Shown: piece by piece, positions 32,055 through 45,553 of the stretch
Position numbering within the stretch: the first letter of the stretch is position 1
Layout: each line of letters begins with the position of its first letter
DNA from: Verrucomicrobiales bacterium
GTDB taxonomy: Bacteria; Verrucomicrobiota; Verrucomicrobiia; Verrucomicrobiales; DEV007
Assembly (NCBI GenBank): GCA_029213195.1
Contig: JARGNI010000024.1
Span: 28,028-92,027 of the forward strand
Length of the DNA: 64,000 nt
Direction of reading: 5' to 3'
Position numbers and translations under genes: made by a program
Notes under the pieces: generated by a model
Told to the model about the DNA's origin: nothing
Database searches by the model: none
What the model saw: only the letters and a program-made list of their open reading frames with translations

Positions 32055-32175
32055 ACATCAGGAGAGGTAGATCGTGGCAGATCCCGCCCCCCGGAGTTTC
32101 TTGGGGACGGGACAGGCGACCCTACAAAATGACTGACAACCGACCCGCACAGAGAGACAATGAAGAGGAAGGTTG

Positions 32176-33894
32176 ATGAAGAACACCAGCATTCAGTTCC
32201 ACGCGAGCCACTGCAGAAACATCTGGCGTTCCCAGGTGCTTTCCGGGTTCGTTCTCCTTCTATTGACCGGAAACGTCCTCGCCGAGAATCCGGCAGTTCC
32301 AATCCCCTCGCTTTACCAGAAAAAGGACCTCTTCGAGGAGGCAATCACGGCAGGCAAGTTCGAACGCTCCCCGAACCGGAGGGTCACGGGAATCACGGTT
32401 CCCCATCACCTCCTCGCCCCGGATCTCATTTCCCTCGGATTCCACTCCGCTGCGGGAGGATCCTACGAAAGAGTCCTCCTGCTTTCTCCCGATCATTTTC
32501 GCAGGGCCCGGAAACCCTTTGCCACGACGACTCGCGATTTCCTGACGGTCCTCGGAGAAGTTCCCACCGACGTGGAAACAGTGAAGACACTCTGTCTTCG
32601 CAACCATCTTGTGGAAGAGGCCGACCTTTTCGACCGGGAACATGGAATCCAGACCATGCTGCCCTTCGTCGCCCACTTCTTTCCCAACGCCAAAGTGATC
32701 CCCCTGGCGATCCGGGCAGACAGCGATTCGCAGGATTGGCGCGAGTTGGTGGATGTGCTGAAGCCCCTGATCAGCGAACAAACCCTGATCGTCCAATCCA
32801 CCGATTTTTCTCACTACCTCACCGAATCGGTTGCGAACCGAAGGGATCAGGAAACCATGAACGTCATCTCCGGTGGAAGCTTGGACGAACTCTCCCGACT
32901 CCAGCAACCTCAACATCTCGATGCGCTGGCCGCCCAATGGATTCACCAGGCGCTCCAGGCAGAGGTATTTGGTGCCAGGCCGACCGTTGTGGCCCACCGG
33001 AATTCCAATCACTATACGGCCACGCCCCAGCGGGAAACAACCAGCTACCTGGTGCAGGTCTTCGAGAAGGAATCCTCGATCAATCCCCCGTGGCCGGCGC
33101 AAGAAGGAGACGCTCTTTTCTTTTTCGCAGGAGATACGTTTCTCGGGAGAAACTTTCTCCCCATCGTGTCTCACCCCGATTCCGCCGCTGAAATTCAGCA
33201 ACGGATCAGCCTTCTTACGGGTGGGGCTCCCCTCATTCTCAATCTCGAAGGGGTGCTTTCAGAAGAGGCTTCCACCGATCAGGAAGAGAATACCCTCCTC
33301 ATGCCTGACACCCTCACCCTCGACTGGCTGCGAGCCCTGAATGTGGTCGGAGTCAGCCTCGCGAACAACCACTCACACGACCGGGGACAAATCGGCTGGG
33401 AGCGTTCACGCCGCAAACTGGAAAAGCATGGAATCGCGGTCGTCGGCGATCAGGAAACGCACGACTTTGGTCCTTTCCGACTCGCCGCCTTGACCGATCT
33501 TTCCAATCAGGTGAAGCCCTACACGCAACGGCTGAACCGAGAGATCATCCTTTCGGCACTTCCTGAAAAGACGCCCGATCCGCTCTTCTGCTTTCTTCAC
33601 TGGGGACGCGAATGGATGGGAGAACCCGGAGCGAGGGAGGAGCAGCTCACCCGCCACTTCTTCGAAGGAGGAGCTTCCGTCATTCTCGGAGCCCACCCTC
33701 ACACGGTCAGCAAAGGAGTCGAAGCGCTCAGGGGGGGACGAAACGCACGAGTCTACTCGATGGGCAACTTTCTCTTTGATCAGCGCAGCCCCAAAGCCTC
33801 TGGTGCACTCATCGAAGCGCGCTTCTTCCAATCCGGAACCTACGCTCTGCGCTGGATTCCACTGGAGAATCCCTACGAGCCGAAAGCCCCCTGA
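32176..33894 (+). CDS. MEMO (AmmeMemoRadiSam B)-CapA fusion protein
   Basis: The 572-residue exported protein (signal peptide cut near VLAENP, residue 37) joins two families. Residues about 60-300 are MEMO-like: TVPHHLLAPDL, LLLSPDHF, EHGIQTMLPFV and STDFSHY match the metal-site signatures, while the conserved cysteine near the end of the family is not evident. Residues about 310-565 are a CapA/PgsA metallophosphatase-like domain: FFFAGDTFLGRNF, NLEGVL, LANNHSHDRG, HWGREW, GAHPHT and YSMGNFLFD. CapA-type proteins act in poly-gamma-glutamate capsule formation; the joint role is unknown. GAGGAAGG precedes the ATG; a TTG one codon earlier is also open. Confidence 0.87.
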   Translation: MKNTSIQFHASHCRNIWRSQVLSGFVLLLLTGNVLAENPAVPIPSLYQKKDLFEEAITAGKFERSPNRRVTGITVPHHLLAPDLISLGFHSAAGGSYERVLLLSPDHFRRARKPFATTTRDFLTVLGEVPTDVETVKTLCLRNHLVEEADLFDREHGIQTMLPFVAHFFPNAKVIPLAIRADSDSQDWRELVDVLKPLISEQTLIVQSTDFSHYLTESVANRRDQETMNVISGGSLDELSRLQQPQHLDALAAQWIHQALQAEVFGARPTVVAHRNSNHYTATPQRETTSYLVQVFEKESSINPPWPAQEGDALFFFAGDTFLGRNFLPIVSHPDSAAEIQQRISLLTGGAPLILNLEGVLSEEASTDQEENTLLMPDTLTLDWLRALNVVGVSLANNHSHDRGQIGWERSRRKLEKHGIAVVGDQETHDFGPFRLAALTDLSNQVKPYTQRLNREIILSALPEKTPDPLFCFLHWGREWMGEPGAREEQLTRHFFEGGASVILGAHPHTVSKGVEALRGGRNARVYSMGNFLFDQRSPKASGALIEARFFQSGTYALRWIPLENPYEPKAP

Positions 33895-33897
33895 CAC

Positions 33898-35877
33898 TTA
33901 TCGACTTTCGTAGCTCCGAATGGCTTCGATATTCGCCCGTTCGGCAGCATTGAGGAGCGGCTCGATTTCATCGATCCCTCCCACGGGCTGATAGAGATCC
34001 CCCAGGCTCTCGGCGAGTTCCTTTCCGCGATCCGAGCCAAAGATGTAGCCTCTTCTTGCGAAGATCTCGTTCCTCGCTCTCCAAAGATCATCCCTCGTCA
34101 GCTGGCTCAACTCGTCGTCCCCGAGGAGTCGTTCATGCGAGTCGGGGAACAGGTAGGGGGAGTCGCCCGGCATGATGATCTCACCACCGCCTCCGTCGAT
34201 TCCATGCAACTCAAAATCGAGATCTCGGGGGCGGAAAAGGTGAACGCGACAGACTGGCGAGCGAAGCATCGTTCCATCCGAACAGTGAAGAAGAACCCGA
34301 AACCGGTGGTGAGAACTACGCTCCACATTCAGGTCGAGACCGAAACGCGCATCCTGGAAAGGCTCCACTCGTTGGGAGAACGGAAACGGAAGCCGGTAGT
34401 TCTCCCCCTCGTACTGAAGCGCGACGTCATACTTGGCATTCCCGCCCATCGCATCCCCTCCCTCGACGAGGTAGATCAGTTGAATGAATCCTTCGTAGAG
34501 AACGGAATGCGAATGGGTCTTCCCCCTGGCATCGGTCCATTCGTAGCTGAGACGAGCATGGAGGCCTACCGAAGCACTATCAAGAAACCCCTTGTCGTCA
34601 TACTTTGCGAAGCGTCCATAGACCGCATCCCCCTGATCCCGAGTCCACTTGCCCCGGAAGTTCATCGAGTCGTACTCGTGTTCCCGAGCAAAAGCAACAT
34701 CAACGCCGCATTCCTCGAATGCCTTGGTCATGTCCACCTTGAGAAGACGCTCTTTAAAATCTCCCAGCTGGATCTGGAATTCGTAGGTTTCATCTGTTCC
34801 CGGTTCAGGTCCCTCTCCGTAGCGATGGAGATTGAAGTCGAAAACGCAGTTCCGCGCTCCGCCCCATCCGGCATTGGCTAGATCGAACTGAATTTCCGAT
34901 GCACCGAGCCGAGGAACAATGTAGGGAGACAGGTCTGGGATACTCTCGATGACCTCCACCTCTCCCCGCTCGATCACGACCTGGCGCGTTTCCTGGTTCT
35001 CGAACGCCATCTCCATGAAGAGAGAACCGATCGCCGGCATCTCAGAGCGGACCAACCCACCTTCCCGGTAACTCTCAAGCATATCCGCTACAGGTCGGAA
35101 ACCGAACTCGCCCTCCTCGTAGTACGATTCGTAGGTGACCGAATCCAAGGTCGCCCTGCGAAAGTATTCGTTCTTTGCCAGGGAACTCACGAGCCCGAAT
35201 TGGATCGCCTCCTCGGAAGCGGCAATGCGTTCGAGAGCCGTCTTGCGACGAGTCAAGGATTCCGGTGTCTCCAATCCATTGACCCACTCGGATTCATACC
35301 TGACTCCGCCGGGCCATTCCACGGTCCCCTCTCCGTTGCGCTTCCCGCCCTTGAAGGTGCCCTCATAGACTTCCATTCCATGACGCGCATACATTCCCTT
35401 TCCTTCCATCTTTCCTGCCGAGAAGTATCCCTGGTAGTAATCTCCATTCGCATACCAGAACTCACCCCATCCATGGGGGAGATCATTTTCCCAGGCTCCT
35501 TCATACTTCTCACCGTTCGCAAAGCGGATCTTTCCTTTTCCGGTCCGCTTCCCGGCATCGAGAAATCCGGTATAGACCGAAAGCAAGCCCTCGGGACCGT
35601 AGTCGGGTGCGCCTTCCTCTCTCCAGCGGAGCTTTCCCTTCCCAGTCGCAAAACCCGCCTCATCGACGTCCCCTTCCCAGTAGAAATTTCGATTCCGCTC
35701 CGGCTGCAAGTCCCACACCTTGATCGTTGTCTCGAATTCCTCCTGTCGTTCCTGATCCCACCCGACGACAACGGCTTCATTCCAGGCTCCCTCGGACGGG
35801 TTGCCATTCAGGGATAGGAACGGAACTCCGGCAAGCAGGCCTGCGACTAGCGGAACAATACTATGAATAGTTTTCAT
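33898..35877 (-). CDS. Exported MORN-repeat protein with C-terminal YARHG-like domain
   Basis: The 659-residue protein has a signal peptide (residues 1-24), about five MORN repeats (about 65-210: GKGKIRFANGEKYEGAW, HGWGEFWYANGDYYQGYF, GEGTVEWPGGVRYESEW), an unrecognised beta-rich middle of about 380 residues, and a C-terminal YARHG-like domain (LSQLTRDDLWRARNEIFARRGYIF ... AERANIEAIRSY, where the name motif reads FARRG). MORN repeats bind lipids or proteins; YARHG is an extracellular domain of unknown role. It overlaps the STAND gene by 4 bases (ATGA), so it is translationally coupled to it, and its export implies that it works in the periplasm. Confidence 0.85.
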   Translation of the reverse strand: MKTIHSIVPLVAGLLAGVPFLSLNGNPSEGAWNEAVVVGWDQERQEEFETTIKVWDLQPERNRNFYWEGDVDEAGFATGKGKLRWREEGAPDYGPEGLLSVYTGFLDAGKRTGKGKIRFANGEKYEGAWENDLPHGWGEFWYANGDYYQGYFSAGKMEGKGMYARHGMEVYEGTFKGGKRNGEGTVEWPGGVRYESEWVNGLETPESLTRRKTALERIAASEEAIQFGLVSSLAKNEYFRRATLDSVTYESYYEEGEFGFRPVADMLESYREGGLVRSEMPAIGSLFMEMAFENQETRQVVIERGEVEVIESIPDLSPYIVPRLGASEIQFDLANAGWGGARNCVFDFNLHRYGEGPEPGTDETYEFQIQLGDFKERLLKVDMTKAFEECGVDVAFAREHEYDSMNFRGKWTRDQGDAVYGRFAKYDDKGFLDSASVGLHARLSYEWTDARGKTHSHSVLYEGFIQLIYLVEGGDAMGGNAKYDVALQYEGENYRLPFPFSQRVEPFQDARFGLDLNVERSSHHRFRVLLHCSDGTMLRSPVCRVHLFRPRDLDFELHGIDGGGGEIIMPGDSPYLFPDSHERLLGDDELSQLTRDDLWRARNEIFARRGYIFGSDRGKELAESLGDLYQPVGGIDEIEPLLNAAERANIEAIRSYESR

Positions 35878-38800
35878 GGTTTTTCGTTAGGGTTTGGTTG
35901 AAAGGAAGAAGCTTCCGTGGTTTCAAAAATCCCGAGACGCTCTGCCCAGGTATCGGGAGAACAGGGGAGAAAGAAAACCGTGCCATCAGAGGAGGCCGAG
36001 ACGACGATTCGCTCCTCTCCCGGTTTCCAGCAAAGATTCGCGATCGACTTGCCGTGAGCACGAAACGAAAGAAAGGGCGCGAGATTCTCGCAGTCCCAGA
36101 TCCAGATGGTTCCATCATCCCCTGCTGAAGCGAGCCAGCGACCTGATGGATCGAAGGCCAGGGTTTCCACGTCCCCTTCGTGTCCCTCGAAAACCTTCAC
36201 TTCCTTACCCGATTCAACGTCCCAGAGAATGACCCGACCATCATTGCTGGCGGAAGCGATTCGCTCGCCATCCGGTCTGAAGTCGAGAGCACAGACTGCC
36301 ACGCGACTTCCCGGGCCATGACCTTTCCAGGTCGAGAGGACCTCGCCCTTTGCAGCATCCCACCACCAGATTCTTCCGTCCGTGCCCCCCGTGGCGACTC
36401 TCGTTCCATCCGGTGAGACCGCCAAGCCCTGGACATAGTCCTCATGACCCTGCCATGACATCAAGGGTTCTCCGGACGGTGACCACACTCCAACCGTTCG
36501 ATCCCAACTACTCGAGAAGAGACGGTCTCCCTTGGCATCCCATCGCAGTTTCCAAACGGTATCTTCGTGAGTGGCTGAGCTGCCACCCCACTCTCCCTCG
36601 GGCCAGGCGGAAATCCGCAGCGCACCTCGGACCGCGCCCGCGGCGAGTCGCATTTCAACCGGATGCCACGCCAGGCACTGGACCGGTGCGCGGGAAAGCG
36701 AAAGAGGAGGACCAACCAGTTTGCGATCGTCAAGATCCCAGACCGAGACAGTTCCATCTTCGCCTCCTCCCGCGAGCCATTTTCCATCCCGGGAGAAAGC
36801 AACTCCGCGTATTCCAGCTCCTTCCGAAAGAGACAAGCGGAGAAAATTCTGATGCTCGAGCTCGAGGTCCCACAGCCGGACTGTCCCATCATCCGATCCC
36901 GTCGCGATCTGGTCTCCACTCGGAGACCAGGATAAACTCAGTGCGGTCTCGCGGTGGGCTTCCATCACCTGAGACGGAGTTCGCTGGGAGTAGTCGACCG
37001 CACCGAAATTGTCGACTTGCTTCTCCAATTTCCAGAGCAACAACTCTCCTGCGGAGGTCGTCGCCGCCAGCCAGGACTCCTCCGGATGAAAGTCGATCGC
37101 GGTGACCGGATCCTCGCAAGGCAGGAACCCGACCTGTTCACCATCCACCATGCTGAAAATCTCCACTCCGAGCCCGATGGCCGCAGCGGCAAGCAGTTGC
37201 TGATTGGCCTGAAGATCCAGCGCGGCAACTCGTCTACCCGCCGATCCCTGCTTCCAGCCAATTTCGGCCGATCGAAACTGAATCTCCGCGTTCCCTTCCG
37301 GCCCTTGCTCGACTGCCAGAACAAGACGCCCAGACTCGCCAACGGCGAGGGCGGTAACACGCTGAGACAAAGGTTCGGTCTTCCATTCCCCATGGGAAAA
37401 CCACTGCACTCCATTCTCGGCCTGCGGGGAAACCGCCACCCCTCCGTCGGTCGCAATGCTGCCGAACGCAACCGGCGAGGTCTTCTTCTCGAAGCTTGCT
37501 TCGAATCCATCACGGATTCGACCGATCGAGCCATCTCCATAGACAGCGACCAGCCCCTCCGAGTCCAACCAGCGAACCGCTTTCACCGCAGACCCAAGAC
37601 CTTTCTCGTCGTCGGGAACGACCTCACTCGACCAGCGATTCTCTGCCAAATCCCTGAAAAAGAGAGTGCCTCCCCGAGTGCCTGCAACCAGCCCCTGTCC
37701 ATCACTCCTCCAGGCGAGAGAAACCACGCCCGAAGCGAGGGCCTGCTCACTCGCTTCGAAACGCGACTCTTCCGGAATTTCCAGGATCTGCGAGAGATGA
37801 CGGGAAACCGAGGCGAGCGCTTCGACCGCAGCCGACCGGGGGCCGAACGATCCCAGGCTCGCCTCCGTATCCGAAGCAGCCAGGGCCAGGGCTCCAACGG
37901 GATCACCGTTCTTCATGAGGCCAGCGAGACGACTCGATAGCACTTCGGACTCCAGCCGCTCCAGAGCCAATTCCCTTTCGTTCTCCAACCGCTGCTCCTG
38001 CACCGCCTGGTGATTGAAGTAGATAAGAAATCCTGACACAGCAACCACTGCGGCCGCGATCCCCACCCGTCGCAGAAGCTTGTTTCGCTTGTCCCTCTTC
38101 TGCGAAAGATGCACGAATTCGATCAGCGCAAGGTTTCCCTCTATGAGATGGGGGAACTCTTTCCTCAGATGAACGGCCGAATCAAGAATCAGACCTCCCG
38201 GGAGTAGGAGGGAATCATGACGATCCGCGTCCTCCCATTTCTGACATGCCCGCATCACCTCAGCTCGATCGAGCAAACCTTTGCGATTCGATTCAATCCA
38301 GCCCTCAAGTTCCGGCCACGCGGTCAGTAGCGCTTCGTGAGCCAGCGAAACCGTTGCATTTTCATCGTCGCCGGAAGTCGTCAAGAGACGGGACTGACTC
38401 GCGCTCAGCTTCTTCACCAGCGATTTCAGTGTTGGCTCTGAATTCAAAGCGTTCTTGAGGAAACGCTGACGCACAACCCGCTCCGTCTCGGTTTCGATCG
38501 TGACGAGATTCCGAAACAGGTCTGGCAGGCTCTCCTTCTCCTTCGGGTCGAGACTTTCGACCATGTGCTGAGTTCGACGCTGCAGACACCCACGAATACC
38601 ACCCATCTCCCGATAGATCTGGAAGGTCACCTCGCCATCGCCGCTTCTCTGCTGATACAACTCCTGGAGAGCGTCCTGGATGAGCGGGAGCCCCATGGAC
38701 TCCCCTTCCCTCGCCTCTTCGAGAATGACATCGGCAAGCGAACGACCGCTTTCGTCATCCTGTTCGAATCGGAGCCCCACCAACCGGGCCGGTTCTTCGA

Positions 38801-40163
38801 TGATCCGCCGCAGGTCTCCCAGGGACGGGGCAACGAGATCGAAGCCTCCCTCCTGCCCTTTGAGTTCACGGAAAAGCTCGTCTTTTTGCGCCGTGGCATA
38901 GAAATCACTCCGCAAAGTCGCCAGCACCCAAACCCTGCCGGTCATCGCGAGCGCCTTGAGCTCTTCGAGGAAGTGTTTTCTCTCCGGTTCCGAAATCCCA
39001 CCAGAGAACAACTCTTCGAATTGATCCACGATCACGAGCAACTGCACCGGACCACCCACTTCCTTCTCGGCAAGATCCAACCCTGCCTCCGAAAGTTCTG
39101 CGGGAGAATCCACGAGATGATTCGCGAGGACCGATGCGCTCTCCGCATTCAACTCGGAGATCCCGTATTTCGCTTCGCGGAGTGTCGCAGAAAGGCTCGG
39201 GAGCAGCCCGCCCGCCACTTCCGTTGGGATGAAGGTCGCCACCCGCCACTGACGGACATTCGGGTCTCGGTTTCGATGGAGGAGTTTGGCGGCGAGCCCA
39301 GCTCGCGCGAGGGAGCTTTTTCCGCTGCCACTCGAACCGAGGATGACGACAAAAGGCATCGCTCTCGTTTCCTGATTGCGTTCCCCACTTCCTTGCGGGA
39401 CTTTGAGAAATTTTCGGTGACGTTCCCGAAAACGATTTTCGAGTTCGAGAATCTGCTGCTCCCGACCACAGAAGATTTCCGCGTGTTCGATGTCAAACGA
39501 GTTCAGCCCTCGATAAGGATCGCTGCTCCATCGGCTCGCTATGACCCGGTCACCAAGGAGCCGCTCGATGATCGCGCGCAGGTGAATTTCCAGCTGATTG
39601 GCAAACGTGACTGGTTCCGGGTAGGAGTGGTAGGCTCGCAGGTTCCGACCTTTCTCATCATTGAACTCGGTTCGGACAAACTGCTCAAGGGCCTTCTTCT
39701 GATTGAGCAGCCGCTCCATTTCGTCCGACGCCTGGCTGAGCACCCGCTGCCGAAACCCATCATCATCTTCTCTGACATAGGCAAGGATCTCGGGGCGCTT
39801 CGGGTCTTGCCCACTCTGATCCCGAGCTTCCAGCATGAGGTAGAACTCGGCCTGCGTACCCGACTGCCATCGCGTTCCGTCCTCACGTTTCAACTTCCCT
39901 CCCACCTCGGAGCCGATCCGTGACCAAAGGATGAACACCGCGACATCAATTCCTCCTCCTTCGTCGAGAAGCCGATTGATCCCCTCCTGGAAGGAAGCAT
40001 CGGCCCCGATCCCCAAGTGCTCCCAGAGAATCACCTCGAGCTCGACTTCGGCACCAAAGCGAGCATCCAGTTCCCTGATGACTCGCTCCGCCTGCTCACG
40101 CTCTTCACTCACATCACCGGGAGAAGAGATGAAGATCCGAAGGGTTGTCTGTTCCGTTTTCAC
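35874..40163 (-). CDS. DUF4062-STAND NTPase-WD40 protein with one membrane span
   Basis: From the GTG at 40163 the product is 1429 residues. Residues 5-130 are a DUF4062-like module (LRIFISSPGDVSEEREQ). Residues about 215-640 are a STAND-type ATPase: Walker A GSSGSGKSS at 276-284, Walker B LLVIVDQFEELF at 375-386, and a winged-helix-like end (SLAHEALLTAWPELEGWI, about 606-623). A membrane span follows at 700-717, flanked by basic KRDKRNKLLRR. The rest (about 780-1420) is WD40: six or more clear blades end VRLWDLE, VSVWDLDD, IWWWDAAK, VILWDVES and IWIWDCEN, with degenerate blades before. The start is inferred from the DUF4062 onset. STAND proteins are signal-triggered oligomerising switches. 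Confidence 0.9.
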   Translation of the reverse strand: MKTEQTTLRIFISSPGDVSEEREQAERVIRELDARFGAEVELEVILWEHLGIGADASFQEGINRLLDEGGGIDVAVFILWSRIGSEVGGKLKREDGTRWQSGTQAEFYLMLEARDQSGQDPKRPEILAYVREDDDGFRQRVLSQASDEMERLLNQKKALEQFVRTEFNDEKGRNLRAYHSYPEPVTFANQLEIHLRAIIERLLGDRVIASRWSSDPYRGLNSFDIEHAEIFCGREQQILELENRFRERHRKFLKVPQGSGERNQETRAMPFVVILGSSGSGKSSLARAGLAAKLLHRNRDPNVRQWRVATFIPTEVAGGLLPSLSATLREAKYGISELNAESASVLANHLVDSPAELSEAGLDLAEKEVGGPVQLLVIVDQFEELFSGGISEPERKHFLEELKALAMTGRVWVLATLRSDFYATAQKDELFRELKGQEGGFDLVAPSLGDLRRIIEEPARLVGLRFEQDDESGRSLADVILEEAREGESMGLPLIQDALQELYQQRSGDGEVTFQIYREMGGIRGCLQRRTQHMVESLDPKEKESLPDLFRNLVTIETETERVVRQRFLKNALNSEPTLKSLVKKLSASQSRLLTTSGDDENATVSLAHEALLTAWPELEGWIESNRKGLLDRAEVMRACQKWEDADRHDSLLLPGGLILDSAVHLRKEFPHLIEGNLALIEFVHLSQKRDKRNKLLRRVGIAAAVVAVSGFLIYFNHQAVQEQRLENERELALERLESEVLSSRLAGLMKNGDPVGALALAASDTEASLGSFGPRSAAVEALASVSRHLSQILEIPEESRFEASEQALASGVVSLAWRSDGQGLVAGTRGGTLFFRDLAENRWSSEVVPDDEKGLGSAVKAVRWLDSEGLVAVYGDGSIGRIRDGFEASFEKKTSPVAFGSIATDGGVAVSPQAENGVQWFSHGEWKTEPLSQRVTALAVGESGRLVLAVEQGPEGNAEIQFRSAEIGWKQGSAGRRVAALDLQANQQLLAAAAIGLGVEIFSMVDGEQVGFLPCEDPVTAIDFHPEESWLAATTSAGELLLWKLEKQVDNFGAVDYSQRTPSQVMEAHRETALSLSWSPSGDQIATGSDDGTVRLWDLELEHQNFLRLSLSEGAGIRGVAFSRDGKWLAGGGEDGTVSVWDLDDRKLVGPPLSLSRAPVQCLAWHPVEMRLAAGAVRGALRISAWPEGEWGGSSATHEDTVWKLRWDAKGDRLFSSSWDRTVGVWSPSGEPLMSWQGHEDYVQGLAVSPDGTRVATGGTDGRIWWWDAAKGEVLSTWKGHGPGSRVAVCALDFRPDGERIASASNDGRVILWDVESGKEVKVFEGHEGDVETLAFDPSGRWLASAGDDGTIWIWDCENLAPFLSFRAHGKSIANLCWKPGEERIVVSASSDGTVFFLPCSPDTWAERLGIFETTEASSFQPNPNEKP

Positions 40164-40305
40164 GTCTGTGCTGCCCGCATTCCTCGCGCTGAGCAACACC
40201 CTATGTATAAGAGATATCGGCCCTTTTTGCCGCGCATCTACTGTCCCGCGGTGGGCACCTCTTGCCGTGGCAGAAAATCCAGCCCCCCCCCTCGTTTCGC
40301 TCAGG

Positions 40306-42306
40306 CTAGTCCGCAGCGGGAGGGGGCAAGAGTGGTGATCGCAGAAACCCATTTTCATCTCCACTCGCAATCGAGTCGATATACCATTGGTGAGCGTGGG
40401 AATGAGCACCCGTGTAGGGATCGATCCCCTCGGGAAGTTCGAGCCCGAACTTGGTGAAATTGGGAACAAACCCCGAGTCCGGAATCCCGGTCGCAAAGGC
40501 CGAGGTCTTGTAGAAGTCGATCGGCGTGGTCTTGAGAAGATGCTCGAGGTGCGCCTTCACGGGAACCGGAGTATCCAGCATCGTGACCCGAAACTCGGGT
40601 GGGGCCAGCCCAAGGTCGGTCAATACCGTCGCGGCGTGAAGCACGACAAAGCCTCCAGCGCTGTGACCGACGAAGTGCATCGGTCGGGTGTTGTCGATGT
40701 CACCCGATCGGATCGCCCTTGCCAGCTTGTATCCGACGAGTTCGCCGATCTCCTCTGCCGCCGGCCGAATCGCAGCCACATTCTGCATCCACCCTTGGGG
40801 AGTGGTGGGAATGACATTCCCGGGCTCATCCCCTTCCTTGACCCCCTCGAGCCCCGTCAGGGAAAAGTGCGAAGGGTTGGCGGCAAGATGCCAATTCACG
40901 AGACAAATTTCGGGAGCACTGGCACCGAGATGACTTTTCACCGCCTCCTGCATACGGGTCATCCAATGAGCCTCCTCTCCCTCGCCGAATTTCCCTTGCG
41001 TATCGACTCCATCGTGCAACCCGTGAGCAATCAGCAGGAAACCGTTCTTCACTCGATTCGGAACCGGATCCCAGTCCTGCGCTTCCGCGCTCGAGAGAAG
41101 CCTCCCGTCCTCCTGCCGAAGCCTGCTTGTCTCGATGGGATCCTTGGGAACATGCAGGGAAATCAATCCGGTGGTGATGACGACGGAAAGCGCGACGACA
41201 AGCAGGCGCCCGAAGATCACTCGACCAACAAATCCAGCACTGACCCCGACCCCAGAAACAATTCTCTCGATCCAGCTACGCTCGACCCGGGCCGCAACCT
41301 CTCGTATCTCTGCAGCATCGTTGATCTTGCTCTTTGATCGGTAGTAGGGCTCGCTGAATTTCGCCTGGTAATACCACTCCACAACCTCTCCCAGGAGGAC
41401 CCGCTCAACTTCCTGGACCGTGCTTCGCAGGGCATCTCGATCCTCCAGGGCTAGCAGTTTCTTTCGAACGGATTCGAGAAATTCGATCTGCTGAGCATAC
41501 CGGCCGGTTCTGCGGTCCAGCTCCAGGCTTGATCCTAACAATTGCATCAATAGCGCCACCAGCGGAAGCGCCGCCCCCACAAACCCGAGGATGTAATCTG
41601 ACCCCGAGAGACGCAGCCATCGATCCGCCCCTGCATTAAAGGAAACCGCCAGTCCCGCCACCGCAAGAAAGAGCGATCCGTCGAGGGAGAACGTCACGAT
41701 CCGGCCGAGTCGTCGTCGTTCGACAATCGCCTCCTCCAGCATGCGACGATAGTAGTCGAGCTGATCATCGACTCGTCGCTTGAGATACTCGTCGCGAGCA
41801 TCCTCCAGCCGATACTCTTCGGGATTTTCACCGACGATCCACGAGGCGAGCGGCTTGAGCGTGGGTTCCGAGTTCAATGCCTCTTCGGTCGCCTTCTCTG
41901 CGATCCCTTTCGTCGCCACCCCGGAACGTGCGATCTCCCCGACAAGGCGAGCGCCCGTCCTCGCATATTGCATCCCCCGCCATCGCAACCACCAGCAGAT
42001 GGCGATCAAAACGAGGGTGCAGAACACGACGGCATAGGAAACATAAGCCGCCGGCCAACGGTGTCTCACGACGAGAAACCAGAGAAGAGGAGCCAGAACC
42101 GCGACCCCTTGAAACGCGAGAATATAGCGGATCGTTCGACGAATGTTCGGCGCAAGCCGATCTGCCATTCCACCCGCCTTCACTAGAATCTTTGCCGGAT
42201 CCCCTCCGCGGAAAATTCGGAGAACAGAAAACAGGGGGGGTGCCCACGAAGGCATTCCCTCGGTATCCTGCACCTCTTCGACGGCTCTCTCCATCCCTTC
42301 GGCCAT
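40306..42306 (-). CDS. Multi-pass membrane protein with SLATT-like segment and C-terminal serine hydrolase
   Basis: The 666-residue protein has membrane spans at about 57-80, 86-105, 205-222, 236-257 and 360-385. Residues 165-320 (RVDDQLDYYRRMLEEA, two spans, LDRRTGRYAQQIEFLES, WYYQAK) resemble SLATT/DUF4231 two-span domains, known as membrane effectors in predicted conflict systems. Residues 415-645 are an alpha/beta hydrolase: LLIAHGLHDG, nucleophile GHSAGG (Ser549), probable acid D578 in MLDTPVP, and an HSHAH cluster near 635-639. Positive-inside charges place the hydrolase in the periplasm. It lies 142 bases upstream of the STAND gene on the same strand; a joint system is inferred. Confidence 0.82.
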   Translation of the reverse strand: MAEGMERAVEEVQDTEGMPSWAPPLFSVLRIFRGGDPAKILVKAGGMADRLAPNIRRTIRYILAFQGVAVLAPLLWFLVVRHRWPAAYVSYAVVFCTLVLIAICWWLRWRGMQYARTGARLVGEIARSGVATKGIAEKATEEALNSEPTLKPLASWIVGENPEEYRLEDARDEYLKRRVDDQLDYYRRMLEEAIVERRRLGRIVTFSLDGSLFLAVAGLAVSFNAGADRWLRLSGSDYILGFVGAALPLVALLMQLLGSSLELDRRTGRYAQQIEFLESVRKKLLALEDRDALRSTVQEVERVLLGEVVEWYYQAKFSEPYYRSKSKINDAAEIREVAARVERSWIERIVSGVGVSAGFVGRVIFGRLLVVALSVVITTGLISLHVPKDPIETSRLRQEDGRLLSSAEAQDWDPVPNRVKNGFLLIAHGLHDGVDTQGKFGEGEEAHWMTRMQEAVKSHLGASAPEICLVNWHLAANPSHFSLTGLEGVKEGDEPGNVIPTTPQGWMQNVAAIRPAAEEIGELVGYKLARAIRSGDIDNTRPMHFVGHSAGGFVVLHAATVLTDLGLAPPEFRVTMLDTPVPVKAHLEHLLKTTPIDFYKTSAFATGIPDSGFVPNFTKFGLELPEGIDPYTGAHSHAHQWYIDSIASGDENGFLRSPLLPPPAAD

Positions 42307-42488: not shown

Positions 42489-43199
42489 ATGAAGATGTCG
42501 GAAGAAATCCTGGTCGAACTTCGTAGCGTGTCCCGTCAATACAAGCTCGGGAAAACCGTCGTAAATGCGCTTGAAGGGGTCAGCCTCGAAATCGTACGCA
42601 GCGACTTCCTCATCGTCGCTGGCCCCTCGGGGAGTGGAAAGTCGACCCTGCTCAACCTGATCGGCTGCATCGATCAGCCGACGGCGGGCAGTGTCATCTT
42701 CGATAGCACGGATGTCGCAACCCTGTCGGACCGCGAGCTCTCTGCGTTTCGGGCTCACAAGCTGGGCTTTATTTTCGAGTCTTTCAATCTCGTCCCAGTT
42801 CTCAATGCCCACGAGAATGTGGATTACCCGCTCCGGCTTCGGAACGTTCCTGCTGCCGAGCGCCAGTCGCGGACCGAGGCCATGCTCGAAGCCGTCGGTC
42901 TCCAGGATCAGGCTCTCCATCGCCCCGGCGAATTGTCCGGGGGTCAACGACAGCGTGTCGCCATTGCTCGTGCCCTGGTCACTCACCCGGAACTGGTACT
43001 CGCCGATGAACCGACAGCGAATCTCGATACCCGAACCGGGGAAACCATCATCGACCTGATGAAGGAAATGCGCGACCGACTCGGGACGACATTTGTCATC
43101 GCCACTCACGATCCCATGGTTGCGGAACGCGCAAGACGTCGGGTCGAAATCCGCGATGGCAGGATCTCAAACGATTCGCTCATCCCTTCCCCCCGGTAG
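42489..43199 (+). CDS. ABC transporter ATP-binding protein (LolD/MacB type)
   Basis: The 236-residue ATPase has Walker A GPSGSGKST (about residues 41-49), Q-loop region FIFESFNLVP, signature LSGGQRQRVAIARAL (about 141-155), Walker B LVLADEPTAN and switch His in IATHD. It belongs to the MacB/LolD/FtsE-like branch that powers permeases working on envelope substrates rather than solute import. It is the first gene of a three-gene unit with an FtsX-type permease 11 bases downstream and a LolA-like protein after that, pointing to lipoprotein or lipid transport across the envelope. Confidence 0.95.
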   Translation: MKMSEEILVELRSVSRQYKLGKTVVNALEGVSLEIVRSDFLIVAGPSGSGKSTLLNLIGCIDQPTAGSVIFDSTDVATLSDRELSAFRAHKLGFIFESFNLVPVLNAHENVDYPLRLRNVPAAERQSRTEAMLEAVGLQDQALHRPGELSGGQRQRVAIARALVTHPELVLADEPTANLDTRTGETIIDLMKEMRDRLGTTFVIATHDPMVAERARRRVEIRDGRISNDSLIPSPR

Positions 43200-43210
43200 T
43201 CTTTCCAGCC

Positions 43211-44686
43211 ATGCACGACCTCATCCTGGCTCTTCGAAATGCCTGCCGAAACCGACGGCGTTCCCTCGTCACGGTTTCCGCCCTGGCCCTCTGCACAACT
43301 GGCCTGATCCTTTTCGCCAGCTATGTCATGGCGACCTTCAAGGGAGATGAGACCCGCACCGCCTGCGGAATGGGGCACCTACAGATTTTCAAGAAAGGCT
43401 TTCCTGAGAAAGGGATCGGTAGTCCGGCGTCCTTTGTGATCGAGAATGATGGGGAACTGAAGAAAGTGCTCCGCGAAGACCCCCAAGTCGGACCGCTCAT
43501 CGAAGTCCTCACCGGCCAACTCACCTTCTCGGGCCTGGCCAACTACTACCCGAAAAACACTTCCGCGGTATTCGTGGGCTTCGGCGTCGACCCCGATGAC
43601 TACGCCGTCTTTTCCGGCTGGAATCCTTTCGGTCTCGCGAAACCGGATTTGCTGCCGATCAACGAATTGCTTTATCAACGCGGCCCCTGGCTCGACAAAT
43701 CGGATCTCGATGGTGGCAGCATCGGAATCGGGTTGGCAGAGATGCTTGAGATCGCCCCACCTGATTCCCACGAGGGCTCCGCAAGCCCGAAGCCGGCACC
43801 CGCTCCTGCCGATCAGGACTCCAGCCAGGCTGCAGCAGAGGAGAAAGCCGACGAAACGACCGATCCAGGGGCGAATGATCTTCCGAACTTCGACGTTCTC
43901 GAAGCCGCTTCGACCCAGCCGAATCCCGCGGGCGATGGCCGCCCTCGGATCGAGCTGCTCAGCGTCCCCGAAGCCGGAGCTTCCCCCAACATCCAGAGCC
44001 TCGCGGTTCGCGCGGTGAGGCCCTTCGAAAGTGTTGAGCTCGATGACCGGCTCGTCCTCATGCACATCGAGCACGCCTCCGAACTTCTTTTCCCAGGCCA
44101 GCCCACAAAGGTGAACTCCCTCCGCCTCCTTCTCGAAGACAGTCGCGATGTCGATGCCGCAGCGATCCGCATCCGCGACATCCTTGCCGCCGACTTTCCC
44201 GACCTCGAATGCCGAACCTGGATCGAACTGGCCCCTTTCTACGAACAGATCACCTCCTACCTGCGGGTCATCTTCCTCTTCATGTTCACCATTATCGCCA
44301 GCATCGTCGTCTTCACGATCTACAACACGCTGGCTGCTTCCATCGTCGAGCGCACTTCGGAAATCGGAACCCTCCGTGCCATGGGCGTCACCCGCACTCG
44401 GATCGCGAGCCTCTTCATTTTCGAAGCCGTCTTCATGGGGATCGCCGGGGGGCTGATCGGCGTTGGGATGGCTCTCCTCCTCGGTACGATTTTCAACCAG
44501 ATGAATATTCATTTCAATCCCCCGAGCACCGCCTATTTCACCAAGGTCGAGGTCCTCGTGTTTCACGAACCAATGATCCTCGTCCTCGGATTCGCGATCG
44601 CGGTGCTGGCCGCAGTGGGGTCGTCCATTTTCCCTTCGGTCAATGCTTCCCGCATGGCCATCGTCGATGCCCTGCGACACAGTTGA
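43211..44686 (+). CDS. ABC transporter permease (FtsX/LolC-like)
   Basis: The 491-residue permease has one N-terminal span (about residues 19-41), a large periplasmic domain (about 42-340) and a C-terminal FtsX domain with three spans (about 350-480), including the diagnostic ERTSEIGTLRAMGVTRTRI coupling segment. The periplasmic part contains a Pro/Ala/Glu-rich low-complexity insert near residues 175-235. It pairs with the ATPase gene immediately upstream. The layout is that of MacB/LolC-like machines that extract or push molecules on the periplasmic side. Confidence 0.92.
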   Translation: MHDLILALRNACRNRRRSLVTVSALALCTTGLILFASYVMATFKGDETRTACGMGHLQIFKKGFPEKGIGSPASFVIENDGELKKVLREDPQVGPLIEVLTGQLTFSGLANYYPKNTSAVFVGFGVDPDDYAVFSGWNPFGLAKPDLLPINELLYQRGPWLDKSDLDGGSIGIGLAEMLEIAPPDSHEGSASPKPAPAPADQDSSQAAAEEKADETTDPGANDLPNFDVLEAASTQPNPAGDGRPRIELLSVPEAGASPNIQSLAVRAVRPFESVELDDRLVLMHIEHASELLFPGQPTKVNSLRLLLEDSRDVDAAAIRIRDILAADFPDLECRTWIELAPFYEQITSYLRVIFLFMFTIIASIVVFTIYNTLAASIVERTSEIGTLRAMGVTRTRIASLFIFEAVFMGIAGGLIGVGMALLLGTIFNQMNIHFNPPSTAYFTKVEVLVFHEPMILVLGFAIAVLAAVGSSIFPSVNASRMAIVDALRHS

Positions 44687-44707
44687 ATCCGCCACCCTGA
44701 CAAAAAC

Positions 44708-45553
44708 ATGATCAATCCCCTCCTCGCCAAAGCTCGGGTCCTTGTTCTCGCCCTTGCCAGCGTTTCCTATCTGGCTTCGCCATCGCTGGTTCGCAGTGAC
44801 GATGCAGACACCATTATTCAGAGCGTTGCCGACAGCCTGAAACCACCCCGCTCTTTCAGTGCGCTTTCCAAGATCGAAACCTACCGCAACCGGGCTCCCT
44901 CGGGGTCCATGGTGCTTCGCACCTACATCAAGATTTCCAAATCGACGGATGGGCCGCATTCCATCTCCATCGTCCTTTCGCCGACTGGAGATCGCGGCAA
45001 GGTCTTTCTCCGAGTTGGCGGTGCGTTCTGGCTCTATGACCCCGGAGCAGAGAGACCCGTCAAGATTTCCACCCAGCAGCGCCTCATGGGAGATGCCTCG
45101 CTCGCCGATGTCACTCACTTCGATCTCGAAGAAAATTATTCCGCCATTCTCGAGGGCGATGAGAAGATCATCGATATTTCCGGAAAACAGGTTCCCGCGC
45201 AAAGACTGACCCTGAAGGCGAAATCTCGAAACGTTCTTTACCCGACCCTCCGGCTCTGGGTCAGTTCTCGCAACAACCGGGATCAGCGAGACCAGAGACA
45301 ACTCCCGATCAAGATCGAGTGCCTGTCTTCCGCGGGTCGAGTTCTCAAAACGGTTTACTACAGCCAGTTCCGCGGGTTCCTGGGAAAGCAACGACCCACC
45401 GAACTGAACATCGTGGATGGCACCGCACCGGGAAGAGTCACCCGGATTCGTTTCTCCGAATTTCGCTACGAGGAAATCGATGCCAACTCCTACACCACCG
45501 GAGCGATGCCCTCGATCTCCGGCTGGGCGAAGAAGGATCGCGCGGGCAGGTAA
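44708..45553 (+). CDS. Outer-membrane lipoprotein-sorting protein (LolA-like family)
   Basis: The 281-residue exported protein (signal peptide ending near residue 30) fits the LolA-like family annotated as outer membrane lipoprotein-sorting protein (PF17131 type). Telling segments are DTIIQSVADSLKPPRSFSALSKIETY at the start, FLRVGGAFWLYDPGAERPVKIS, QRLMGDASLADVTHFDLEENY, and a C-terminal FSEFRYEEIDANSYTTGAM. Such proteins accompany FtsX-type ABC transporters and are thought to carry lipids or lipoproteins through the periplasm. It begins 21 bases after the permease stop. Confidence 0.88.
   Translation: MINPLLAKARVLVLALASVSYLASPSLVRSDDADTIIQSVADSLKPPRSFSALSKIETYRNRAPSGSMVLRTYIKISKSTDGPHSISIVLSPTGDRGKVFLRVGGAFWLYDPGAERPVKISTQQRLMGDASLADVTHFDLEENYSAILEGDEKIIDISGKQVPAQRLTLKAKSRNVLYPTLRLWVSSRNNRDQRDQRQLPIKIECLSSAGRVLKTVYYSQFRGFLGKQRPTELNIVDGTAPGRVTRIRFSEFRYEEIDANSYTTGAMPSISGWAKKDRAGR

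Follow-up and report, generated by a model that had tools for sequence, protein, structure and literature searches.

Do three adjacent genes of a Verrucomicrobiales bacterium—encoding a membrane protein with a hydrolase domain, a membrane-spanning ATPase and a likely exported repeat protein—form one defence system, and if so, how would the parts communicate across the membrane? The genes, here called A, B and C, lie in a 64,000-nucleotide stretch (the window; contig JARGNI010000024.1, positions 28,028 to 92,027) of a 5.9-Mb draft genome, all on the minus strand, as are their features given below by window position. A (40306..42306) is a SLATT-type membrane protein of 666 residues with five hydrophobic spans and a C-terminal lipase-like domain. 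B (35874..40163; 1429 residues) combines DUF4062, nSTAND1, a membrane span and WD40 repeats, and C (33898..35877; 659 residues) is a likely exported MORN-YARHG protein. A gap of 142 bp separates A from B, and B and C overlap by ATGA (35874-35877). The open frame of B extends to 40496; its start was set at the GTG at 40163, which the N-termini of homologues fit.

Our preferred reading, held tentatively and at just under an even chance, is that A-B-C raises an alarm across the inner membrane: on sensing an event beyond it, B would cut NAD+ and switch on the lipase of A, and the cell would damage its own membrane. A preliminary description of this DNA had already listed three same-strand genes with the ATGA overlap, five spans and a C-terminal GHSAGG hydrolase in A, a STAND ATPase with its Walker A motif and WD40 blades in B, and a signal peptide, MORN repeats and a YARHG-like end in C. 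All of this stands, and the hydrolase can now be described more narrowly.

A SLATT core fused to a lipase-like domain

The A family has 52 listed members, with family-mean hydropathy peaks near residues 71, 95, 212, 248 and 377. The four-span core (residues 37-319; 41350..42198) is homologous to the C-terminal region of proteins of the SLOG-SLATT type; aligned with nine of these it reached an hhalign probability of 99.9 (E 2e-33, 281 columns), and three of the nine (L026, L061, L064) pass the SLATT_1 cut-off. SLATT_1 also matches 44 of the 52 family members at E<=0.01. Although A alone stays below the Pfam cut-off for both SLATT_1 (E 0.014) and Abhydrolase_6 (E 0.0019), the SLATT and hydrolase assignments are firm because they rest on family-level evidence. 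By membrane-helix homology, A thus belongs among the SLATT proteins, as had been suspected for its residues 165-320.

The fifth span (residues 367-386; 41149..41208; family-mean hydropathy 2.23), with a net charge of about +3.3 before and -0.4 after it, is the predicted route of the chain to the periplasm. Beyond it, residues 396-657 (40336..41121) are predicted to adopt the alpha/beta hydrolase fold of the pancreatic-lipase/phospholipase A1 (PLA1) superfamily. The predicted triad consists of the nucleophile Ser549 (40660..40662) within GHSAGG (547-552), Asp578 (40573-40575) and His635 (40402-40404), and it is kept in 51/52 family members, the sole exception being a 444-residue fragment. From fold and triad, the domain is predicted to be specifically PLA1/pancreatic-lipase-like and to hydrolyse lipid. 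Each piece of this SLATT core-PLA1 fusion, repeatedly paired with trans-membrane TIR-fold receptors, is of a known kind; neither the fusion nor the pairing was found in the open-licence literature searched. At nine other loci (L032, L033, L035-L041), the lipase-like part (about residues 386-662 of A) is fused into other large proteins of 849-1456 residues without the SLATT core.

SLATT-lipase genes recur beside TIR-fold genes

To the window we added seventeen of 26 fetched loci and L055 (genome G115), giving a set of 19 A loci; the nine loci just mentioned, which have a hydrolase-type match only, were excluded, and contigs fetched twice (L053, L054, L056, L057, L070-L072, L136, L137) were not recounted. 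A TIR-fold gene (TIR or DUF4062) lies within the fetched stretch at 14/19 loci, or at 12/17 when L017 and its near copies L018 and L019 are counted once, and two more loci carry RyR genes or genes with a GHR motif and YAcAr matches short of threshold, which we call SLOG-like. In 17 stretches of 8.5-19.9 kb drawn at random from ten A-bearing genomes, no TIR-fold, SLOG-like or RyR gene was found (Fisher p 1.1e-5); the hidden Markov models (HMMs) used for this count were seeded with members of the set itself, and the random stretches were scanned with these models only. At nine of the loci Pfam reports TIR_2 above the cut-off, and at L024 it reports DUF4062; the TIR call in L022 comes from a local HMM and the DUF4062 call in the window from its own model. 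The TIR-fold gene is on the same strand and within 700 bp of A in the window and at L016, L017-L019, L023, L024 and L026, and at L030 and L034 the two are separated by one gene on the same strand.

The partners of distant A relatives vary (TIR-WD40, TIR-TPR, TIR-FHA, DUF4062). In a tree of 24 A proteins, TIR-fold partners occur in both main clades, DUF4062 turns up at two separate positions, and the gammaproteobacterial members form three separate lineages. A span outside the TIR domain is predicted in 8/12 TIR-fold partners, with more charge before than after it in 7/8. Like gene order, homology and motif conservation, this linkage is an observation: across genomes, the recurring unit is a SLATT-lipase with a TIR-fold gene, often accompanied by SLOG-like or RyR genes. 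A nucleotide signal is therefore at least as likely a link between receptor and hydrolase as the mechanical switch implied by the preliminary description.

Two of these loci merit separate mention. In Alteromonas arenosi (L022:6128-21896), a TrkA_N-RyR gene, a SLOG-like gene and an A relative stand in a row, with a 1545-residue TIR-nSTAND1 gene further on; at L024:11900-12499, a DUF4062 gene that begins 12 bp after the A relative has a predicted span near residue 175 and is truncated by the contig end.

B is a predicted membrane-spanning NADase receptor

The N-terminus of B (residues 1-215; 39519..40163) has a predicted TIR/NDT-like fold, although Pfam DUF4062 stays below cut-off (E 1.1e-3; 19.6 vs 24.7 bits). 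The DUF4062 family is described as a TIR-like NADase (PMC13174449, a 2026 preprint). Glu106 in SGTxxE (39846..39848), the predicted catalytic glutamate, is conserved in 120/120 listed B relatives (B itself included) and in 9/9 sequences of alignment A3; judged by its position at a helix start after the fourth strand region, not by residue alignment, it would correspond to E97 of KpSwz. The TIR-like fold, the invariant glutamate and the published activity together predict NAD+ cleavage. The DUF4062-like N-terminus of the preliminary description is thus retained at the level of fold and Glu106; rather than a mere adaptor, it is a probable TIR-like NADase.

Residues 216-650 (38214..39518) match nSTAND1 (PF20703, E 4.8e-84) and contain the Walker A motif GSSGSGKSS at 276-284, whose G276, S283 and S284 are kept in 118, 120 and 120 of the 120 listed relatives; profile and P-loop agree on an nSTAND1-type STAND ATPase. 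A single span peaks at 696-714 (38022..38078; hydropathy 1.93), slightly shifted from the 700-717 first proposed; it is predicted to run from inside to outside (net charge +3 before, -2 after), and 103/120 listed relatives have a span at the same place. The WD40 repeats (residues about 730-1410; 35934..37976), recognized by WD40 and beta-propeller Pfam models, are predicted to be extracytoplasmic. The charge patterns support the topology suggested earlier, with the ATPase inside and the WD40 repeats, hydrolase and C outside; for A and B alike, folds, spans and sidedness are predictions.

Could B instead switch on A by touch? In such a scheme, which comes near the idea of the preliminary description, nSTAND1 assembly would activate the A hydrolase by protein contact in the membrane, with DUF4062 as a non-catalytic adaptor. 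In its favour, A lies next to B and each of the two crosses the membrane, and human NWD1, NWD2 and NPHP3, which carry DUF4062, showed no NADase activity. The invariance of Glu106 speaks against an adaptor, however, and the distant A relatives partner with quite different TIR-fold proteins, a variety easier to explain by a small signal common to all of them than by one contact surface that all would have to share; we consider direct contact improbable.

Matches to B residues 1-700 number 3019, against the 52 listed for A, and in 95 related genomes most B relatives are located without A. This imbalance, and the fact that DUF4062 systems function as single-gene NADases, would suit plain NAD+ depletion with B as sole killer, like Swarozyc and TEP1-type NADases, and A as an accessory—an anchor, an envelope remodeller or a parallel effector. 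Set against it are three more contigs that carry A, B and C together (see below) and the recurrence of A beside TIR-fold genes, as expected for an output; we give it a low probability.

Among B relatives, genome G094 has tandem DUF4062-nSTAND1-WD40-type genes of 1875 and 1911 residues (L123:8442-19898; 36% and 35% to B). In genome G079, a SLOG-SLATT-type gene lies 21 bp upstream of a 1753-residue DUF4062-nSTAND1 relative of B (L067:8701-15606), so that another SLATT protein is paired with a B-type receptor, there without a lipase.

C accompanies A and B in a close clade

C carries four stretches of MORN repeats (residues about 100-195; 35293..35580, bounds approximate; Pfam 1.1e-14) and a YARHG domain (residues 575-657; 33907..34155; Pfam 4.8e-14). 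Seven of its 26 listed matches (P0053-P0059) span >=82% of C, and a signal-peptide-like N-terminal stretch, judged by eye, is present in C and all seven. In the distant P0059, one of the seven, YARHG is missing and an SH3 domain is labelled. Beyond the genome of the window, C is matched in the 95 related genomes by its YARHG end alone (24 genomes). YARHG domains like that of C are common in other, shorter proteins of genus genomes; among MORN-rich relatives, P0060 and P0061 carry TIR_2 and P0062 a caspase label, placing MORN repeats in likely conflict proteins.

By equal sizes of the longest contigs, A, B and C occur together on three further close-clade contigs, of 42450 (P0003, P0082, P0056), 162627 (P0005, P0081, P0055) and 20447 (P0006, P0083, P0058); their order and spacing are inferred from the matching sizes, not from their DNA. 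B and C share a contig of 9470 (P0084, P0059) with no A among the listed matches, and the close C relatives P0053, P0054 and P0057 have no matching contig size. Among 74 family genomes, the three-gene form is found solely in its own genome, and two more contain an A relative but neither B nor C; full-length A is thus patchily distributed (3/74). Co-localization of the three families, predicted earlier, therefore holds for the close clade and fails beyond it: among 18 other A-family loci, several on short contigs, none has a match to C and none has a B-type DUF4062-nSTAND1-WD40 gene beside A. As distant A loci lack C, A-B-C as a universal operon was rejected.

Such scarcity—C is not found with A beyond the close clade, and A is usually without B—is what independent, chance neighbours would give. 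Against chance stand the three additional contigs and the overlap of B and C, and we find this explanation scarcely credible.

Genomic setting

By Pfam, ten flanking genes comprise sulfatase, DUF1501, Memo/PGA_cap, ABC (ATP-binding cassette), FtsX, LolA-like, DUF2238, lycopene cyclase-like and P-type ATPase genes and one without a match. Divergent and upstream (42489-45553) are an ABC ATPase, an FtsX-type permease and a LolA-like lipoprotein-sorting protein; a gene convergent with C (32173-33894) has Memo-like and PGA_cap domains, and the ends of these two genes are 3 bp apart. For an empty-site comparison, the flank proteins of A-B-C proved too rare in the 33 genus genomes (present in 2 others and in 1 other). 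Plasmid carriage was rejected, a plasmid collection giving no match; a promoter scan gave 1 site (2.3 expected), and no terminator-like site was found in the A-B gap. In PADLOC, B has five partial matches, among them PDC-S60 (1.8e-7) and, in the WD40 part, HEAT-ARM_XIII, and A-B-C as a whole matches no listed defence system.

This setting raises the option of envelope homeostasis rather than defence, in which a relay sensing wall or lipid would trim phospholipid or another ester under stress. The divergent ABC/FtsX pair and LolA-like protein fit it, as do the proposal that YARHG binds peptidoglycan (PMC3355149) and the lack of a recognizable defence island at the locus. The patchy distribution of full-length A, its spread to three separate gammaproteobacterial lineages and the neighbours of A relatives, which are typical of conflict systems, do not, and we assign homeostasis a very slight probability.

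How the alarm might work

In the reading that we prefer, the WD40 half of B and exported C, perhaps held at peptidoglycan, would monitor the periplasm. By analogy with its family, nSTAND1 would oligomerize in an ATP-dependent manner and gather the DUF4062 domains, which are predicted to cut NAD+ in the cytoplasm. An ADP-ribose-type product would then bind A at its SLATT core—or B would contact A directly—and the lipase, judging by fold and triad, would hydrolyse outer-leaflet phospholipid of the inner membrane or another envelope ester, presumably to the harm of the cell's own membrane. SLATT has been proposed as an effector regulated by ADP-ribose derivatives and occurs beside TIR genes in phages (PMC9503650; see also PMC7159879), and RyR-domain proteins act on cyclic ADP-ribose signals (PMC13232231); the nucleotide-responsive pore or effector function of SLATT is itself a prediction in print.

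Several observations weigh against this reading. For A, the model has a predicted template modelling score (pTM) of 0.55 and a low-confidence fifth span (predicted local distance difference test, pLDDT, about 56-63), because of which the membrane side of the lipase is a prediction, and the loop between the first two spans is slightly positive though expected outside. By sequence the hydrolase looks generic: family members match Thioesterase (39/52) and Abhydrolase_6 (37/52), Pfam Lipase (PF00151) finds 1/52 (E 0.0052), and a PDB search by sequence ranks a thioesterase first (E 0.003). For the N-terminus of B, Foldseek alone does not rank TIR chains at the top, unrelated Rossmann-like chains come about 1-2 Z behind in structure comparison, and a PDB sequence search gave nothing credible (one match at E 0.37); TEP1-type DUF4062 yielded ordinary ADP-ribose (PMC13174449), which is not known to be a ligand of SLATT. 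In the linkage data, beside the seeding of the HMMs, local HMMs found no TIR, SLOG-like or RyR gene in the fetched stretches of L021, L028 and L031; the TIR gene is 3.6 kb (L020) or 5.3 kb (L022) from the A relative, or on the opposite strand (L027, L029). PADLOC has no match for A or C, and a defence-island location was rejected, the ten flanking genes being ordinary by their Pfam names; nothing in the analysis pointed to phage or envelope stress as the trigger.

A bolder proposal, rather unlikely as it stands, is a layout like that of Toll receptors: repeats outside, one span, an NAD-cleaving TIR-fold inside, and an ADP-ribose-type signal to a membrane-anchored, periplasm-facing phospholipase. 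A-B-C would be one form, and A relatives beside TIR-WD40 or TIR-TPR genes (Shewanella, Pseudidiomarina, Alteromonas, other Verrucomicrobiota) sister forms, of one widespread, undescribed immune class. Most described bacterial immune sensors watch the cytoplasm. If the proposal is true, this class would use WD40 or TPR receptors to watch what lies beyond the inner membrane, pass the alarm via NAD+ chemistry and return damage to that outer side by a lipase. SLATT proteins, so far predicted effectors only, would gain a testable enzymatic output, and DUF4062/TIR NADases would sit in receptors with a topology like that of the Toll-like receptors of animals. The proposal is open to test, since relatives occur in records of cultivable Shewanella, Pseudidiomarina and Alteromonas.

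Comparison with known systems

Swarozyc (PMC13174449) resembles B in having DUF4062 with a conserved glutamate as its predicted catalytic part. It is a single gene with a C-terminal helix-turn-helix/winged auxiliary domain that binds the phage portal, whereas B has nSTAND1, a membrane span and WD40 in that place, plus membrane lipase A and exported C. TEP1-like DUF4062-NACHT-WD40 proteins (PMC13174449) share with B the order NADase, STAND ATPase, WD40. TEP1, however, resides in the vault particle, while in B, accompanied by A and C, a span is predicted to separate the ATPase from WD40, which would place the repeats outside.

The TIR + SLATT pairs predicted by Burroughs and Aravind (PMC9503650, PMC7159879) likewise join a TIR-fold enzyme to a SLATT protein through a proposed nucleotide link; there SLATT is a proposed pore effector, whereas in A the fifth span joins it, as a fusion, to a lipase-like enzyme. 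Thoeris (ThsB TIR + ThsA; PMC11204291) also separates TIR-fold enzyme and effector, with an NAD-derived signal. Its ThsA effectors contain SIR2-SLOG or a macro domain, whereas the Pfam scan gave no SIR2-SLOG or macro match in A, B or C (for B, among the best 25 of 59).

CapV-type CBASS phospholipase effectors are patatin-like and cytoplasmic. They resemble our proposal in nucleotide-signalled lipid hydrolysis as output, and differ from A, which has multiple spans and a pancreatic-lipase/PLA1-like domain predicted outside. With the secreted PLA1/pancreatic-lipase superfamily, finally, A shares the predicted fold and the Ser-Asp-His order; the solved members are secreted animal enzymes, whereas A is bacterial, membrane-tethered and about 15-18% identical to them.

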